A stretch of 37,266 nucleotides of DNA from a virus. The notes under the pieces were generated by a model. The model was given only the letters and a program-made list of their open reading frames with translations, searched no databases and was not told where the DNA came from. The translations under genes and the position numbers were made by a program. Position 1 is the stretch's first letter, and the number at the start of each line of letters is the position of its first letter. Shown here one piece after another: positions 5,836 through 16,676 of the stretch. The DNA lies in IMG/VR virus record IMGVR_UViG_3300032116_000614, positions 1-37,266 of that record, one strand, 5' to 3'.

Positions 5836-6214
5836 GTATTCCGAGACTCTCGCGGTAGCGCATCTCCCAGGCGCGAATGGCTCGATCCGCTTGTCGGTTC
5901 GCCAGTGTCCGTTGCTCATCAGTCAGAAGTCCCCATGCTTGTCGGGTGATGTCCTCAGGGCATCGCAAGGCAAGGGCGCAGGCAGCGTGGCCGATCCATG
6001 CCTTGCGGTTGAGGTTGTAGTCGGTCAGTGCATTGATGCAGCTGTTGGGCCACTCCACGGTGACCCGCTGCATGTAGCGCCCATAGAGGCGGTGATTGCC
6101 GGTGAAGATCTGTGCGCGATACAGGGCAATGCGTCGATTTGGCACATCGCCCCACATGTTGAAGTGGATCTCCTCCCAGGCGTCAATGGGCAACCAGATC
6201 CTCTTGAGCTTCAC
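5789..6214 (-). CDS. Conserved-looking protein of unknown function in the PAPS-reductase/ParB cassette
   Basis: 141 aa from a GTG at 6214, chosen because GGAGG lies about 9 nt upstream and because the longer frame is a shadow of the preceding gene. It overlaps the EctC-ParB gene by 32 bp. The N-terminal half has MWGDVPNR and FTGNHRLYGRYM. The C-terminal half has KAWIGHAACALALRCPEDI and AWGLLTDEQRTLAN, then a long Arg-rich helix. There is no known catalytic motif, signal peptide or membrane segment. The aromatic-rich, Cys-containing pattern looks like a real globular protein. Placement between the ParB-like and helicase genes suggests it works with the cassette; no function can be named. Confidence 0.7.
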   Translation of the reverse strand: MKLKRIWLPIDAWEEIHFNMWGDVPNRRIALYRAQIFTGNHRLYGRYMQRVTVEWPNSCINALTDYNLNRKAWIGHAACALALRCPEDITRQAWGLLTDEQRTLANRQADRAIRAWEMRYRESLGIRADVESPLLFARDPR

Positions 6215-7124
6215 GTTCGAGATCCTCCGTGATGTTGTCGATCTGATCCACGTCCCATGCCTTGCTGAAATCTTTGCCAAGGAACAGCGACGCCAACCCG
6301 GTGACTTGCTTGAGGCGCAACAGCTCATCAGGGCTCATGCCGATGTGCTTGCAAATCCATGCGTCGCCCTTACCCATCTCGATCAGCTCGGCAACAATCA
6401 CGCTCATCAGCTCGATGTTGTGCGAACCACGGGCGCGGTTGTGACGGATAGTAGAAGCCATCCGGTCGTGTAGCTCTTTGCGGAGCACAACCACGGGCAA
6501 GCGGCCGCCTTCACGTTCGCGGATGCGCTGGCTGTTCTTAAGGGTCAGGAATCGGTGAAAACCGTCAACGACCACATAAAGGTCACGCTCGGCATCATGC
6601 ACGACAACGACAGGTTGCGTGTAACCATCTTCCCAGATGGATGTTTCGAGTAGTGCCATTTCAGGCGGCGCCACAGAGTTGGGGTTGTAATCATTGGCGG
6701 TAACTTTCTCGATAGGAATACTACGTACGGAGTAGACCGGGGATCGCCAAGGGTATGAATCGTTCTCGTCATGCAGTTCATCGCCTTTGAGGGGTGGGTT
6801 GAATACACAGATCAGAGTGGTGGGCTCTAGGGCTTCAAACGTGTGGGGATCATGTTTGTCCAGCACATAGGTCACATCAGGCGCGATGGCGTGGATCTCT
6901 TGGGTTGCCTCGTTAATCAGCAGACCTTTGCCGCTGACGCAGTAGCACGTTTCGAGGTGGTGCTGATAGTGCCAGCGGTGCGGCTTACCAGGATGCACGA
7001 TGGTCTTAGTCATGCTGTATCCCATGCCGTCGTCTTCCGTGAGCAAGCGATGGCTGGTGAAACCGCCTTTTGGGCAATTGACAATGCGATCAGCTGGAAG
7101 CTGTGAAGCGTTAAGGATTTTCAT
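6183..7124 (-). CDS. Ectoine-synthase-like cupin fused to a ParB/IbrB-like domain
   Basis: 313 aa. Residues 1-125 read as an L-ectoine synthase (EctC) cupin: DDGMGYS, HYQHHLETCYCVSGKG, YVLDKHDPH and CVFNPPLKGDELHDE follow the family pattern. The EctC iron ligands (Glu57, Tyr85, His93 in characterised enzymes) correspond to E58, Y86 and H94 with a one-residue offset; H56, C106, F108, E116 and H118 also match active-site positions, while Trp21 appears as Phe22. Residues about 130-250 form a ParB/sulfiredoxin-like domain with NPNSVAPPEM, DGYTQPVVV and VDGFHR (186-191), as in IbrB. A helical, HTH-like tail follows. No EctA or EctB is present, so ectoine is an unlikely product. It is coupled by ATGA overlap to the PAPS-reductase-like gene. 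Its role is unknown. Confidence 0.85.
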   Translation of the reverse strand: MKILNASQLPADRIVNCPKGGFTSHRLLTEDDGMGYSMTKTIVHPGKPHRWHYQHHLETCYCVSGKGLLINEATQEIHAIAPDVTYVLDKHDPHTFEALEPTTLICVFNPPLKGDELHDENDSYPWRSPVYSVRSIPIEKVTANDYNPNSVAPPEMALLETSIWEDGYTQPVVVVHDAERDLYVVVDGFHRFLTLKNSQRIREREGGRLPVVVLRKELHDRMASTIRHNRARGSHNIELMSVIVAELIEMGKGDAWICKHIGMSPDELLRLKQVTGLASLFLGKDFSKAWDVDQIDNITEDLEREAQEDLVAH

Positions 7125-8437
7125 TTGGCGGAACGGTTGAGGACTTGGCTGTACTTACGCTGGATTGACTTTTGGCGGCGCTGCTGCTCTTGCGTTGGCG
7201 CTAGGCCCAGATACTTGCAGGTGTGGTCGTTTTTTAGCACCGTAATGGCGAAGCGCTTCCACGATGTGACCATGCTGTTGTGGCACGGCAGATCATCGAG
7301 ATGATCGGGTGGCACCTTGATCACAACACGGCGCAGATTGTTTCCGCCATGGCGTGTGGTGCCATTGATGTAGAAGCGAATGCCGATACGGCTAAGCGCA
7401 TCAATGATTGACTCAGGAAGACCGCGCCCCACTCGGCCCCAGTAACGGATTGACTGAATGAAGCGCTGCTTAAAATTTGCGCTGGATTGATCTGGCAGTG
7501 TGGCCAGCAAGAACTTGACAAATGATTTCCATGTGTGCCCGGCTGGCAGCTTGAAGGATTTGTAGTCAAGCTGTTTGCCGTAAGTGGCCATAAAGTTTGC
7601 ACCGCCGACCCTGGCGCAAAGCCTGGCCCATACCTGAGGATCAATCACCCGGTACATCGCCAGGCTTGATTTGGACTCTGACATGAACGGTGAGGCAACC
7701 CGCATCTTTTTGATTGGGATGCCGGCCATGTAGAACACGTCATAGAGCTTGTTGTAATCCCAGCCGAACTTTGCGTTCGCGGTCCAAATGTCCTCTGTTC
7801 GCCAGTCGTAGATGGGATAGCAGTTGTAGGTGTGATCGGTGTTCTTTTTTGTCCACATGCGGCCAAGCATGGTTTCCTTGTCCTGATTCAGGATGGCCCG
7901 GAACCGGTTGAGCGATTCAACGGTGCGGATGCCGATCAGGTTGGCGCAAGGTTTGCCTTGGCTGTACCACTCCGCGAACATGTCCCAGAAGGTGGCGTAG
8001 TCCATGTTCTCGATGAACAGGTCGCCAAAGGGATGGTTCTGCAGGTTCACGATGTAATCCTGCTGCGGCATAGGCCGTATCCATCGGTGCCGGTCTTGCT
8101 CACCCCAACACTGCCAATCGATCTCGTAGGAACTGACGGTGCAGGGAAGAGTAATGGGCAGGCAGCACCAGTAGATGTCGAGGATGTCTTGGTTGGCTTG
8201 GAGAATGCGATGCATGAACTCCTCGCTGTGGGTGTAGTTGGCCTCGTTGTCCATAATCTGGACGCCAATCTTGATCGGCAGCTTGCGCTCTCGCACGTAG
8301 TCGCAAACAAGATTGAGGAGAACACCGCTGTCCTTGCCACCAGAGAAGGAGACGTAGACACGGGTGAAGTGCTGAAAGATGAAGTCAAGCCGCTCGATGG
8401 CGGCGTCGTAGACAGATTGTTCGAGGTAGTGGCGCAT
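7121..8437 (-). CDS. PAPS reductase-like PP-loop protein with DUF3440 (IbrA-like)
   Basis: 438 aa. The PP-loop SFSGGKDSG at 30-38 binds ATP or PAPS-like nucleotides in the adenine-nucleotide alpha-hydrolase superfamily. This is followed by IMDNEANYTHSEEFM, IGIRTVES, YPIYDWRTEDIW and a long C-terminal region with SWKRFAITVLKND ... YLGL typical of DUF3440. Such proteins pair with ParB-like partners as IbrA/IbrB, known in E. coli as activators of the prophage eib genes; related PP-loop proteins (DndC) put sulfur into DNA. Here it is the first gene of the minus-strand operon, transcribed away from the recombination genes, and overlaps the ParB-fusion gene by 4 nt. The chemistry is not known; sulfur or adenylate transfer is possible. 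Confidence 0.85.
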   Translation of the reverse strand: MRHYLEQSVYDAAIERLDFIFQHFTRVYVSFSGGKDSGVLLNLVCDYVRERKLPIKIGVQIMDNEANYTHSEEFMHRILQANQDILDIYWCCLPITLPCTVSSYEIDWQCWGEQDRHRWIRPMPQQDYIVNLQNHPFGDLFIENMDYATFWDMFAEWYSQGKPCANLIGIRTVESLNRFRAILNQDKETMLGRMWTKKNTDHTYNCYPIYDWRTEDIWTANAKFGWDYNKLYDVFYMAGIPIKKMRVASPFMSESKSSLAMYRVIDPQVWARLCARVGGANFMATYGKQLDYKSFKLPAGHTWKSFVKFLLATLPDQSSANFKQRFIQSIRYWGRVGRGLPESIIDALSRIGIRFYINGTTRHGGNNLRRVVIKVPPDHLDDLPCHNSMVTSWKRFAITVLKNDHTCKYLGLAPTQEQQRRQKSIQRKYSQVLNRSAK

Positions 8438-10218: not shown

Positions 10219-10396
10219 TTACTTAACGGCCACGCAGTTAGCGCAGCGCTGGGGCCTGCACCCTGACACGCTTAGCCGCTGGCGAAAGGCTGGCAAAGGC
10301 CCGCCGTACTTCCGCACCCCAGGCTTCGTGCTCTACCCCTTGGCCGAGGTGGAGCAATACGAACAGGCCAACACCATTACCCACGAGCAACCATGA
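10205..10396 (+). CDS. Small helix-turn-helix DNA-binding protein
   Basis: 63 aa from the ATG at 10205; a start at 10187 is possible, but the protein proper begins at MNSSDYLTATQLAQRWG. It is a MerR/excisionase-type winged helix: YLTATQLAQRWGLHPDTLSRWRKAGKGPPYFRTPGFVLYPLAEVEQ is the HTH followed by the wing. Proteins of this size act as excisionases, small repressors or DNA-binding accessory factors. No integrase is present, so excision is unlikely; regulation of early genes is a better guess. It overlaps RecT (14 nt) and SSB (ATGA). Confidence 0.75.
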   Translation: MNSSDYLTATQLAQRWGLHPDTLSRWRKAGKGPPYFRTPGFVLYPLAEVEQYEQANTITHEQP

Positions 10397-10818
10397 GCTT
10401 CAACGGAACAGTCACTGGCAACCTTGCCCGTGATCCAGAGTTAAAGGCTTTTGAAAACGGCAGTATGGTCTGCAATGTCGTTGTAGGTGTTAAGCGTCCC
10501 AAGCGTCGCGGCGAGGATCAGCTACCTTTCTGGGTCAAAGCCCAGATCTGGGGAAAGCAAGCAGAAATGGCGGCTGACTGGATGCACAAAGGCGACCTAG
10601 TGCTACTTGCAGGTGAAATTTCAGAAGAGCGCTTCCAAAAGCGTGACGGTTCACAAGGCTTTGCCGTTGTCATTGAAAACGCTCGTTTCGAGCTTTTGCA
10701 ATCCAAGGGCGCATCTGGGTCTAATGCCACGCAAGCGGTTGCGCAAGTAACAGCAGCCGCTCAATCCTTGGCCCAAGCCACTGATGGCGTAGTTGTTGAG
10801 GCTGAGCCGTTCTTCTAA
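10393..10818 (+). CDS. ssb: Single-stranded DNA-binding protein
   Basis: 141 aa with an OB fold over residues 1-110: MSFNGTVTGNLARDPELKAF, VVVGVKRPKRR, PFWVKAQIWGKQAEMAADWMHKGDLVLLAGEI and FAVVIENARFELL. A short Ala/Gln-rich linker leads to the acidic tip EAEPFF, the equivalent of the DDIPF tail that recruits replication and repair proteins. It protects single strands made by the RecE-like nuclease and helicase. It is the last gene of the recombination operon and its stop overlaps the stop of the convergent small gene at 10815. Confidence 0.93.
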   Translation: MSFNGTVTGNLARDPELKAFENGSMVCNVVVGVKRPKRRGEDQLPFWVKAQIWGKQAEMAADWMHKGDLVLLAGEISEERFQKRDGSQGFAVVIENARFELLQSKGASGSNATQAVAQVTAAAQSLAQATDGVVVEAEPFF

Positions 10819-11000
10819 CGCCCCATCAGCTCGCATTCAAGCCGTGCGATCTCGTTGACGGCCTGCTGTAGCAGCTGCTGTTGATAGCAGGCTTGCTTTA
10901 GGAGCGCCGCGGCCATTGGGCCTGCATCTTTGCTGGTTAGCAGGGTGCGGGCTTGTTTTTCAATCTCAAACTGCTGTTCTGCTGATAGCTGGACAGCCAT
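10815..11000 (-). CDS. NblA-like small protein (tentative)
   Basis: 61 aa from the ATG at 11000, which has GGTGAG upstream; an ATG at 11018 is also in frame but lacks a Shine-Dalgarno. The protein reads VQLSAEQQFEIEKQARTLL, then two helices with CYQQQLLQQAVNEIARLECEL. NblA proteins (55-65 aa, phycobilisome degradation) begin with an LSxEQQF helix and are two-helix proteins; some freshwater cyanophages carry nblA. The C-terminal half does not show the usual MMVRE..Y signature, so the call is tentative; an unrelated small helical protein is possible. It is the only minus-strand gene within the plus-strand block, as expected of a moron with its own promoter. Confidence 0.45.
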   Translation of the reverse strand: MAVQLSAEQQFEIEKQARTLLTSKDAGPMAAALLKQACYQQQLLQQAVNEIARLECELMGR

Positions 11001-11041
11001 CCACTCACCGAAGTTCATGGTGCCATAGTGGTGGTGTACAC

Positions 11042-11293
11042 ATGCACGTTAGCGAAGCTGTGAAGTGCCCCCAGTGCGGCAGTGACGAAATACGCGCAAC
11101 CTATACCAACGGCCACGATGCCGACCGTGTGGTGAGGCAACGCCGATGCTTGGCTTGCCAGAATCGCTGGTATACGGCGGAGCTAGCGGTGAGCTTGGCC
11201 GTGGTTGGTTGGGAGCGCAAGGAACCAAACAGCAAAAGTCTGCCGGTTCTGCGGGTCCCGGTCGAGCTGGCAGTGGGCAGCGACGCGGTGTAA
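11042..11293 (+). CDS. Zinc-ribbon protein, NrdR-like N-terminal type
   Basis: 83 aa from the ATG at 11042; the upstream frame is antisense to the NblA-like gene. CPQCGSDEIRATYTNG and, after a basic stretch, RQRRCLACQNRWYT form a CxxC...CxxC zinc ribbon like the DNA-binding end of NrdR or of phage Ogr-type activators. No ATP-cone follows, so it is not an NrdR. It could be a small transcription factor for phage genes. A GTGTACAC palindrome (11034-11041) sits directly in front of its start, between it and the divergent gene. Confidence 0.7.
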   Translation: MHVSEAVKCPQCGSDEIRATYTNGHDADRVVRQRRCLACQNRWYTAELAVSLAVVGWERKEPNSKSLPVLRVPVELAVGSDAV

Positions 11294-14271: not shown

Positions 14272-14321
14272 ACCGCAGCCGGCCGCTGCGGTTCCGCCTA
14301 GCCCTCGAAAAAGGTCTAGGC
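14272..14321. terminator. Hairpin pair between convergent genes
   Basis: ACCGCAG (14272-14278) pairs with CTGCGGT (14286-14292). GCCTAG (14296-14301) pairs with CTAGGC (14316-14321) around a loop with AAAAA. They lie between the end of the plus-strand block (14233) and the end of the HNH gene (14316). No long U-run follows, so they are probable but not textbook terminators. Confidence 0.4.
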
Positions 14322-14633
14322 CGAAAGCTTAGCGTCATCCTGCAACCACTGCGCGATGGCCCACTCACCCAATGCAGACCAGAAAGGCTGCGCACGATAC
14401 CAGTCCACCCAAGGCTTATGGCCCTTGCTGCAGTTGCATCCCATGCAGCAGGCCACCAGGTTCGATGGCGTAGTGGCGCCGCCGTGTGCTTTAGGAATCA
14501 CATGATCAATGGTCGGGCTGCGGCCCAGATCTGCGCCGCAGTATGCGCACTGATAGTTCCACGCCAGGAGGATCTGATCACGTGCTGATCGCCGTGTGAC
14601 CAGTCGCGTCTCTTCAATCCGATGGCGGTCCAC
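14316..14633 (-). CDS. HNH endonuclease
   Basis: 105 aa. A complete HNH fold: CAYCGADLG (first CxxC), TIDHVIPKAHGGATTPSNLVACCMGCNCSKG (His of DHV, Asn of SNL, second CxxC-type pair). The C-terminal helix WVDWYRAQPFW is extra. Short HNH proteins in lambda-like phages either assist terminase in cos cleavage or are homing or nicking enzymes. Here it is far from terS/terL (37 kb end), on the minus strand between small genes, so a homing or free-standing role is as likely. Confidence 0.88.
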   Translation of the reverse strand: MDRHRIEETRLVTRRSARDQILLAWNYQCAYCGADLGRSPTIDHVIPKAHGGATTPSNLVACCMGCNCSKGHKPWVDWYRAQPFWSALGEWAIAQWLQDDAKLSA

Positions 14634-14901: not shown

Positions 14902-15090
14902 ATGCAATACCTACTCCGCATCGGCCCGTGGCATATCGGGCCGTTCCCCACCCATCAGGCCGCCAGCCATTTCGCTGAATCACACGGCTGCGATGACTAC
15001 ACGATGATCCCAATGGATGATCCAGCTGAGGCGCCCGGCAAGATCTATCGGCTGCGCATGGCGCCGCTTGCTACCCCTTGGACCCTGTAA
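14902..15090 (+). CDS. Small hypothetical protein
   Basis: 62 aa from the ATG at 14902. It contains MQYLLRIGPWHIGPFPTHQAASHFAESHGCDDYTMIPMD and LRMAPLATPW. The strand-turn-helix-strand layout suits a small alpha/beta domain. It lies between divergent and convergent neighbours, and its end overlaps the end of the deaminase gene by 20 bp. Real but unassigned. Confidence 0.5.
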   Translation: MQYLLRIGPWHIGPFPTHQAASHFAESHGCDDYTMIPMDDPAEAPGKIYRLRMAPLATPWTL

Positions 15091-15586
15091 CGCCTAGGTC
15101 TGCGTTATATCTTCCGGTTTCGGCATAGCTGTGCTCCACGGTGCCGCTGACCAGTAGGAACTTCATCTGTCCGATGCGCAAGCCCGGCCAAATCGGCAGC
15201 GGATGCAGTCGCCTTTGGTTGCGCAGTTCCATGGTCAGCCTGCTGCCAAACCATCCTGGATCCGCCCATCCGGCCTCAGCGTGATCCCAGCCCTCACGTG
15301 CGCGGGAAGACTTCAGCACGAACTGAGCGCCGACGTGATTAGGCAGGTTGAAGATCTCCTGCGTTTCAGCCAGGAAGAACTCACCAGGCTGAATCCAGAA
15401 TGGATCCTGTTGTGTGTGGCCATGCAGCTGCACTTTCTGCAGCTCAGCTGTGCTGGCAACCTCCATCATGATCTGACCGCCGAGCGTCACGTCATAACTG
15501 GCCGGGTTCAGCTGAGCTTCGTTGTATGGGCTCACCATCCCGTGTCGTTGGCACAGCCGGCGGATCTCATGGTCAGGTAGCAGCAT
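15071..15586 (-). CDS. dcd: dCTP deaminase / dUTPase-like (Dcd family)
   Basis: 171 aa from the ATG at 15586, 7 bp after the endolysin stop; the longer open frame is a shadow of the endolysin. Dcd/DUT trimer signatures: LNPASYDVTLGG, KSSRAREGW (92-100), AGWADPGWFG (105-114), then TMELRN with the candidate catalytic Glu120, and PGLRIGQMKFLLVS (134-147). The C-terminal Y..TGRYNADLGVTGSKG is the nucleotide-closing tail. It would turn dCTP into dUTP for dTMP supply, adjusting the host nucleotide pool to phage DNA synthesis. Placement beside the lysis genes is unusual for a nucleotide enzyme. Confidence 0.87.
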   Translation of the reverse strand: MLLPDHEIRRLCQRHGMVSPYNEAQLNPASYDVTLGGQIMMEVASTAELQKVQLHGHTQQDPFWIQPGEFFLAETQEIFNLPNHVGAQFVLKSSRAREGWDHAEAGWADPGWFGSRLTMELRNQRRLHPLPIWPGLRIGQMKFLLVSGTVEHSYAETGRYNADLGVTGSKG

Positions 15587-15593
15587 CAGGCGC

Positions 15594-16676
15594 TCAGTAA
15601 TCCCAAACGACCTTAGGCCGCCCTTGCCGGATGCCGGTATGAATGAATCCTTTAGGCGCTCCCTTGCCGGTGCTGTACGGCCAGTTCTTGATGCACCACT
15701 CCTGCAGCTTGTAGATATCGACTCCTTGGATGTACCAGTCGACCGCGCCAACGCCTGGTGCGTTGTAAAGGTGCTCGCTCCCACTGGCCCCGCCAACCGA
15801 ACGATTGACGGCTGGTGGCCTGAAGCCACTGGTAATGATGATCGGCTTCCCGCCAAATGCCGTCCGGGCCCTCTCCAAGAATGCAGCCAGCTCCGCTGCA
15901 GTGTCTAGCTGATGCTGATGCTGGAACCGCCGCGCTTGCTGATCAAGCGCGAATTCTCCCAGCCTGATGTGCGGCGTGATCCGCGCATTGAATGGGCTGT
16001 TGGGGCGCAGTTTCGCAGTTTCAGGTTCAGCCGCAGCCTGGTGCTGCCCCCATAGCTTGCCCTCCGCACGGCGCCTCCGCAGCAGGCCAGCTACCACGTT
16101 GGTGCCAGGGTTCCTATACAACTCAAGCGCAGCTGGCACTCCTGCCCAATCACGGTCACGCAAGCACCGGCTGATCGTCTCAAATCCTTCTGATCCGTAA
16201 AAGCCAGCGCCAAGGTTGTAGGCGAAGCTCACCAGCGCTGATCGCTGCTGATCATCCATCACCTTCCAGTGCGGGATGGTGGTGCGCAGCTTCTCAGCGA
16301 TGCGATCCACCTCAAGCCGCAGCAGCATATCGGCCTCGATCACGTTGATCTTGTCGCCGCGCTTCACGGGCACGCCGCCGCTGTACCGCGTTGTGCCATA
16401 GCCAATCGTCCACGGATCACCACCGCTAAGCGGATCGGGATACGCCGAGAGGTGGCAGCCCTCGAACTCCTTAATCAAGCTGATCGCGGCGCTTAGATCG
16501 CTTTGCTTGCCGTCTTGGCTCCACGTCTGAAACCAGTCTCGATCCCTGCGCATCACGGCGTCGTAGCCGTTGGCGGCCAGATCGCTCTCTAGCTGCTGAA
16601 TCGCGGCGCTCTGGTGCGGCAGTGCCTTGTAATACCTGAACAGCTGCTGCAGCGAGATTGGCGCGTCGTTGGCCAT
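15594..16676 (-). CDS. Two-domain endolysin: GH24 lysozyme plus M15 peptidase
   Basis: 360 aa. Residues about 55-210 are a T4-type/GH24 lysozyme: FEGCHLSAYPDPLSGG with Glu72, Asp81 and T90IGYGT as the E-D-T catalytic set, then ALVSFAYNLGAGF and a C-terminal RRRAEGKLW helix. Residues about 235-360 are a peptidase M15A/VanY-like domain: ITSGFRPPAVN, then SEH (His302), AVDW (Asp313) and FIHTGI (His346) as zinc ligands and catalytic groups. One protein should thus cut both the glycan and the stem peptide of peptidoglycan. No signal peptide is seen, so a holin must release it; two membrane proteins follow directly. Confidence 0.9.
   Translation of the reverse strand: MANDAPISLQQLFRYYKALPHQSAAIQQLESDLAANGYDAVMRRDRDWFQTWSQDGKQSDLSAAISLIKEFEGCHLSAYPDPLSGGDPWTIGYGTTRYSGGVPVKRGDKINVIEADMLLRLEVDRIAEKLRTTIPHWKVMDDQQRSALVSFAYNLGAGFYGSEGFETISRCLRDRDWAGVPAALELYRNPGTNVVAGLLRRRRAEGKLWGQHQAAAEPETAKLRPNSPFNARITPHIRLGEFALDQQARRFQHQHQLDTAAELAAFLERARTAFGGKPIIITSGFRPPAVNRSVGGASGSEHLYNAPGVGAVDWYIQGVDIYKLQEWCIKNWPYSTGKGAPKGFIHTGIRQGRPKVVWDY

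Follow-up and report, generated by a model that had tools for sequence, protein, structure and literature searches.

A small gene family of picocyanobacterial phages with an NblA-like N-terminal half and a predicted helix-loop-helix shape

Introduction

The phage gene described here encodes a protein of 67 residues that is NblA-like in its N-terminal half and in its shape, and we do not class it with NblA because both curated membership and the C-terminal half fail. As judged from profile comparison, the gene is one of a widespread family across picocyanobacterial phages, carried by freshwater siphoviruses, marine siphoviruses and a T7-like podovirus. An earlier note had proposed an NblA-like gene here from the DNA alone; the N-terminal motif and helix 1, which align with NblA in register and outscore decoys, the size and shape, the homologues in Synechococcus phages and the mutual absence with NblA bear this out in part, whereas the curated models, the C-terminal half of the window type and the relatives in phages of Prochlorococcus MED4 do not.

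NblA is a ClpC adaptor of about 60 residues with a helix-loop-helix structure, as stated in an excerpt of PMC7966870, and its N-terminal end binds ClpC while its C-terminal end binds phycobiliproteins, as stated in an excerpt of PMC4103541. Phage forms are exemplified by BAF36096 of Ma-LMM01 and by a podoviral type comprising QPD06442 of S-SRP01 and the homologous region of S-TIP37, and both NblA and the gene studied here are small lone genes in cyanophages. No earlier description of the present family as NblA-like was found in the literature searched. A prior assignment is nevertheless possible, since the Fig. 5 legend of PMC9602691 names cyanosiphovirus NblA sequences without identifying them.

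Materials and methods

The window is the whole stretch of DNA analyzed, 37,266 nucleotides long. IMG/VR stretches that encode a relative of the 67-residue protein numbered 239, and DNA-level comparisons used the best 80 of these 239. Family proteins fall into three groups: FW, the window type, has 45 distinct proteins; FS, the type of Synechococcus phages, has 25 rows, among them S-CBS1 gp26 and KBS-S-2A CPKG_00010; and FP, the marine type, has 19 rows, among them P-SCSP2. FWS denotes the window type plus its sister FS, and FWSP denotes FWS plus FP. The A3 profile was built without the rows of S-CBS1, KBS-S-2A, P-SCSP2 and MED4-117. NblA was represented by a host-type set including Ma-LMM01-like sequences (NH, 14 rows), a podoviral set (NP, 8 rows), both together (NN), a myoviral set taken from PMC9602691 (NM, 51 rows) and all three (NNN).

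Results

The gene and its surroundings

The window is a 37-kb cyanosiphovirus-type contig with terminase, portal, capsid, tape measure, tail and endolysin genes, and it also encodes a primase/helicase, RecT, exonuclease VIII and SSB. Between 8 and 16 kb, DNA matches at 60-80% were obtained to Synechococcus phages, among them S-CBS3 and S-CBS1. The features discussed below are collected in Table 1.

Table 1. Positions of the NblA-like gene, its parts and neighboring genes in the window
Feature	Position	Strand	Basis or remark
NblA-like small helix-loop-helix protein gene, 67 aa	10815..11018	(-)	conserved start; no stops in 80/80 relatives; dN/dS 0.059
N-terminal segment MNFGEWMAV	10992..11018	(-)	W6-M7-x-V9 invariant in window type, S-CBS1 and KBS-S-2A; NblA without counterpart
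LSAEQQF (residues 11-17)	10968..10988	(-)	matches conserved motif near NblA N terminus
Predicted helix 1 (residues 13-28)	10935..10982	(-)	AlphaFold2 model m81354bc4919d
Predicted helix 2 (residues 34-66)	10821..10919	(-)	AlphaFold2 model and half-profile comparison; half not recognizably NblA-like in window type
SSB gene (OB fold)	10393..10818	(+)	PF00436, 67.3 bits; convergent, 4-base overlap with 3' end of NblA-like gene
NrdR-type zinc-ribbon gene	11042..11293	(+)	PF22811, 33 bits; divergent, start 24 bases from NblA-like start; conserved neighbor
HNH ORF	14316-14633	(-)	coding; strand resumes minus here
dCTP-deaminase-like ORF	15071-15856	(-)	coding

The true start of the gene lies 18 bases upstream of that of the 61-residue form, which begins at 11000. 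The earlier note had described this shorter form as starting with LSAEQQF; the minus-strand open frame and the motif exist, but the full frame runs to 67 codons, and the motif follows a conserved MNFGEW. All of the 80 best relatives begin with [MV][ND]FG[EQ]WM, and W6, M7 and V9 are unchanged even in the distant proteins of S-CBS1 and KBS-S-2A. Ungapped alignment to the window frame revealed no internal stop in any of the 80 relatives, substitutions were distributed over codon positions 1, 2 and 3 as 0.16, 0.05 and 0.79 (n=2081, 80 loci), and dN/dS was 0.059 (NG86, 58 distinct DNA sequences). The lack of stops, the 79% of substitutions at third positions and the low dN/dS establish it as a genuine gene on which purifying selection is strong.

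The region between the divergent genes, 11019-11050, reads ACTATGGCAC just 5' of the minus-strand start, and this stretch is near-identical in six of seven loci compared, L076 being the deviant. No clear Shine-Dalgarno sequence for the NblA-like gene was seen upstream in these seven loci; a leaderless start is one idea.

Between 8443 and 14233, no other minus-strand ORF shows clear coding behavior. The description of the gene as the sole minus-strand one in a plus-strand setting holds locally, but all of the window up to 8437 and the greater part of it beyond 15594 is minus strand, and the HNH and dCTP-deaminase-like ORFs are also minus-strand. The order of SSB slot, NblA-like gene and zinc-ribbon gene is conserved in those window-type loci that are long enough, with the slot usually filled by another protein. 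The minus strand showed no sigma-70-like promoter site for the gene. A hairpin at 10693-10681 weakly resembles a terminator, and terminator-like sites numbered 4 versus 1.5 expected.

Two further observations concern the surroundings. The OB-fold SSB of the window is an exception: tblastn found a relative in 6 of the 80 window-type loci (L003-L082), in five of them within the slot, while 74 of the 80 carry another, Pfam-less protein of about 122 residues with an SSB-like acidic tail (DVVDADLF in L003), which is a candidate non-homologous SSB substitute. Some of its relatives are only about 30% identical, and in these searches four loci match both protein types and four match neither. Elsewhere, a 313-residue minus-strand ORF at 6183-7124, adjoining the PAPS-reductase gene at 7121-8437, encodes an ectoine-synthase cupin (PF06339, 127.8 bits) fused to a ParB N-terminal domain (PF02195), an unusual fusion for a phage.

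A family across picocyanobacterial phages

hhalign joined FW to FS at 98.9% and FS to FP at 97.1%, and FW to FP directly at only 55%. The A3 profile matched S-CBS1 (5.4e-28), KBS-S-2A (2.2e-30), P-SCSP2 (1.8e-12) and MED4-117 (4.7e-10), and it also found AG-345-A17, of which near-identical relatives remain in the profile; all five records fell within 8e-31 to 5e-10, and eight other records tested gave no match. The isolate members, namely gp26 of S-CBS1 (ADP06631), CPKG_00010 of KBS-S-2A (AGH57641), PSCSP2_00039 of P-SCSP2 and CPWG_00046 of MED4-117, therefore belong to the same family as the window protein, and all four are annotated as hypothetical.

The nearest isolate homologues, those of S-CBS1 and KBS-S-2A, come from phages of Synechococcus hosts, and the records of P-SCSP2 and MED4-117 give Prochlorococcus MED4 as the host. 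To our knowledge, Prochlorococcus MED4 is without phycobilisomes. Contrary to what the earlier note expected of a true NblA, the gene does not fix the host as phycobilisome-bearing. GC content shifts from a mean of 60% over the 80 window-type loci to about 50% in FS and 34% in FP, which would fit, as expected, hosts among Cyanobium or freshwater Synechococcus, marine Synechococcus and Prochlorococcus, respectively. Pattern scans of host genome contigs revealed no host homologue of A1; this is weak evidence of absence because the Ma-LMM01 NblA, which should exist in hosts, was equally unmatched.

Similarity to NblA is concentrated in the N-terminal half

Against NblA profiles, FS gave 79.8% with NH (E 1.5e-5), FW gave 38% with NP, 6.7% with NH and 14% with NN, and FWS gave 66.7% with NN. 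Adding the myoviral set (NNN) raised FW to 84% and FWS to 91.8%; the positive control, NH against NP, reached 92.8%. None of 139 decoys, which are small-ORF families from the same loci and include many chance frames, and none of 24 helix-rich ones reached the score of FW, FS or FWS against NN. With NM alone, FW was equalled by six decoys, and FP against NH was equalled by four. None of 150 column shuffles reached the score of FWS against NNN. Reversed and shuffled profiles fell to background scores apart from three shuffles: two unexplained FWS outliers, of 134 and 139, with NP and NN respectively, and a shuffle of FW whose score with NH was as high as the real one. Single family members among the best rows listed scored about 7 to 17 bits against NblA models.

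Similarity over the whole domain thus lies above all decoys with NN and is carried mostly by the N-terminal half, with some 20 consecutive residues accounting for most of the score. The two families share the alignment register, in which L[ST]xEQ[QE][FL] of the present family falls on L[ST]xEQ[QE]F of NblA. A looser pattern made in this analysis, [LM][ST]xE[QE][QED][FL] near the N terminus, occurs in all 45 distinct window-type proteins, in 13 of 14 host-type and in 7 of 8 podoviral NblA rows; the motif is largely lost in marine FP (1/19 with the loose pattern). The N-terminal half of FW scored 23% against NN and 58% against NP, and the C-terminal half 0.4% and 0.05%. Compared with NblA helix 2, the C-terminal half of FW was equalled by 38 of 139 decoys (NN) and 82 of 139 (NH), and that of FS fared better (1/139 and 4/139, respectively). 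A rough C-terminal phycobiliprotein-binding pattern, also made in this analysis, was found in none of the 45 window-type proteins. Since the N-terminal half carries the score and the C-terminal half of FW scores like decoys, the part common to the family and NblA is, at the level of sequence, the [LST]xEQQF motif plus helix 1.

A related observation concerns S-SCSM1 ORF237 (QFG06501.1), a cyanomyoviral nblA assigned by HHpred according to an excerpt of PMC9602691. It has a similar FExEK...R stretch (FWS against its set 44%, FWSP 52%), but it is 54 residues long and without the [ST]xEQ motif. The S-SCSM1 'nblA' set (L229 28952-29116, L230-L309) gave only 0.6% against host NblA, with [ST]xEQ missing in 51 of 51 rows, so the NblA status of this type of cyanomyoviral gene deserves a re-check.

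Curated models and structure

A search of 43 records with PF04485 at E<=10 found all three NblA-bearing controls but none of the 40 records that carry the family, and the window likewise gave no match. The earlier note had named the lack of such a match beforehand as a result that would refute the NblA reading. NF045916 (NCBIfam) likewise did not match the window protein, although the podoviral NblA of S-SRP01 also fell under its cut-off (17.6 of 100 bits). Across Pfam, PHROGs and NCBIfam, the window protein and its relatives gave no family, or weak chance-like rows only. None of the 40 family-bearing records holds a canonical NblA by PF04485, and the family profile is absent from all five NblA-bearing records tested (S-SRP01, Ma-LMM01, S-TIP37, P-SSP7 and S-SCSM1). 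This mutual absence is only compatible with a shared role because the records come from separate lineages and include many fragments.

The AlphaFold2 model of the 67 residues (pLDDT 89.3) has two main helices, residues 13-28 and 34-66, and a short one formed by residues 3-7, in agreement with the two helices anticipated earlier, and the predicted helix-loop-helix is consistent with NblA in shape and size. Foldseek against PDB and BFVD returned nothing at E<=0.001 and did not list NblA; VIA-align reached a Z of at most 4.6, with unrelated chains, and its list held no NblA either. Modeling a true NblA as a control gave a poor, single-helix model (pLDDT 69) that was also without a match, which leaves the fold search uninformative. 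In a PDB profile search with A1, NblA 1ojh came last of 58 rows (E 0.51), aligned from the motif onward, and was outranked by unrelated chains (beta-lactamase segments, E47). Beta-lactamase was rejected as a candidate, the best PDB rows being a match of only 25 residues that we judged to be chance.

Position in relatives

The four isolate members adjoin lysis or late genes, whereas the window gene lies between ssb and the zinc-ribbon gene. Upstream of the family gene, a same-strand endolysin gene is present in 24 of 30 FS loci, and a phrog_2738-like gene lies directly upstream in all 21 FP-type loci examined, including P-SCSP2, AG-345-A17 and MED4-117; of the six other FS loci, four end at most 235 bases upstream and two (L217 and L218) show neither gene. 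In MED4-117, the family gene is again opposite to its annotated neighbors. In the FS and FP lineages, the gene looks like a late gene at the end of a lysis/late cassette. This position weakens the earlier label of a 'moron', to which the lack of a promoter-like site on the minus strand of the window lends little help either, and it keeps a lysis role under consideration.

In marine and Synechococcus phages (L113-L192, L108, L228, L194, L199-L206), the phrog_2738-type protein, of 54 residues, is encoded ahead of the family gene or of the endolysin gene. Its place suggests a role in lysis; a holin-like label would be a guess.

Discussion

The present family and NblA (PF04485; 1OJH, 2Q8V and 3CS5) are alike in size, helix-loop-helix shape and the register of the N-terminal motif. 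They differ in the curated models, in the extra N-terminal WM-x-V, in the C-terminal half of the window type and in the occurrence of some relatives in Prochlorococcus MED4 phages. The best reading is an adaptor derived from, or imitating, NblA: tentatively, the protein is quite possibly a small helix-loop-helix proteolysis adaptor that would work like NblA with an altered cargo half. The conserved motif and helix 1 would dock on the host ClpC chaperone, and the long second helix would present cargo to the Clp protease. With the cargo half of the window type diverged beyond recognition, phycobiliprotein might be bound differently, or another host protein might take its place. The unmatched PF04485 and NF045916, the short scoring stretch, the loss of the motif in FP and the MED4 phages count against an adaptor, and the neighboring lysis genes of FS and FP do not point to NblA.

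In a narrower form of this proposal, which we consider rather unlikely, the ClpC-docking end of NblA would have been kept or acquired and a different host protein delivered for degradation. Such other cargo would explain the presence of the family in Prochlorococcus MED4 phages. Both forms build on the division of labor published for NblA, with ClpC at the N-terminal end and phycobiliproteins at the C-terminal end.

A role outside proteolysis is suggested by genomic position. The protein could be an accessory of the lysis cassette, a late gene product tuning the timing of lysis, as the endolysin and phrog_2738-like genes upstream in FS and FP would suggest, and several members end in a basic-aromatic C-terminal tail such as RKRRPWWHLW. 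However, the window gene lies about 4.6 kb from its endolysin, the window type is without this tail, phrog_2738 has no assigned function or Pfam match, and a place at the end of an operon is by itself a poor guide. We regard this role as rather doubtful.

That the family is strictly NblA, in a rapidly evolving viral form that would trigger phycobilisome degradation in freshwater Synechococcus- or Cyanobium-like hosts, seems unlikely to us. The motif in every window-type protein, the score of FW against the widest NblA profile and the Synechococcus hosts of the nearest isolates argue for it, as does the diversity of phage NblAs, some of which were assigned via HHpred alone according to the excerpt of PMC9602691. 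However, PF04485 is unmatched, the C-terminal half is not NblA-like, and Prochlorococcus phages carry relatives. A generic host-takeover hairpin, for example a nucleotide sponge or inhibitor of the Acb2/Tad1 kind, likewise a small phage helical hairpin, with the EQQF likeness arising by chance, is quite improbable: two-helix hairpins are common and the weak structural rows include Tad1 and Acb2-like ones, but PF24729 has no match in the window or in seven other family-bearing records while its controls match (T4 2.2e-20, Saintus 4e-11), and the similarity to NblA exceeds all decoys.

If the preferred reading of an NblA-derived or NblA-imitating adaptor is true, picocyanobacterial phages would carry a second, unannotated and widespread family with the probable ClpC-docking end of NblA. 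The set of phages that perhaps hijack the host Clp protease would then come to include cyanosiphoviruses whose picocyanobacterial hosts are freshwater, estuarine and marine, and the question of the cargo would become testable using the 67-residue protein.
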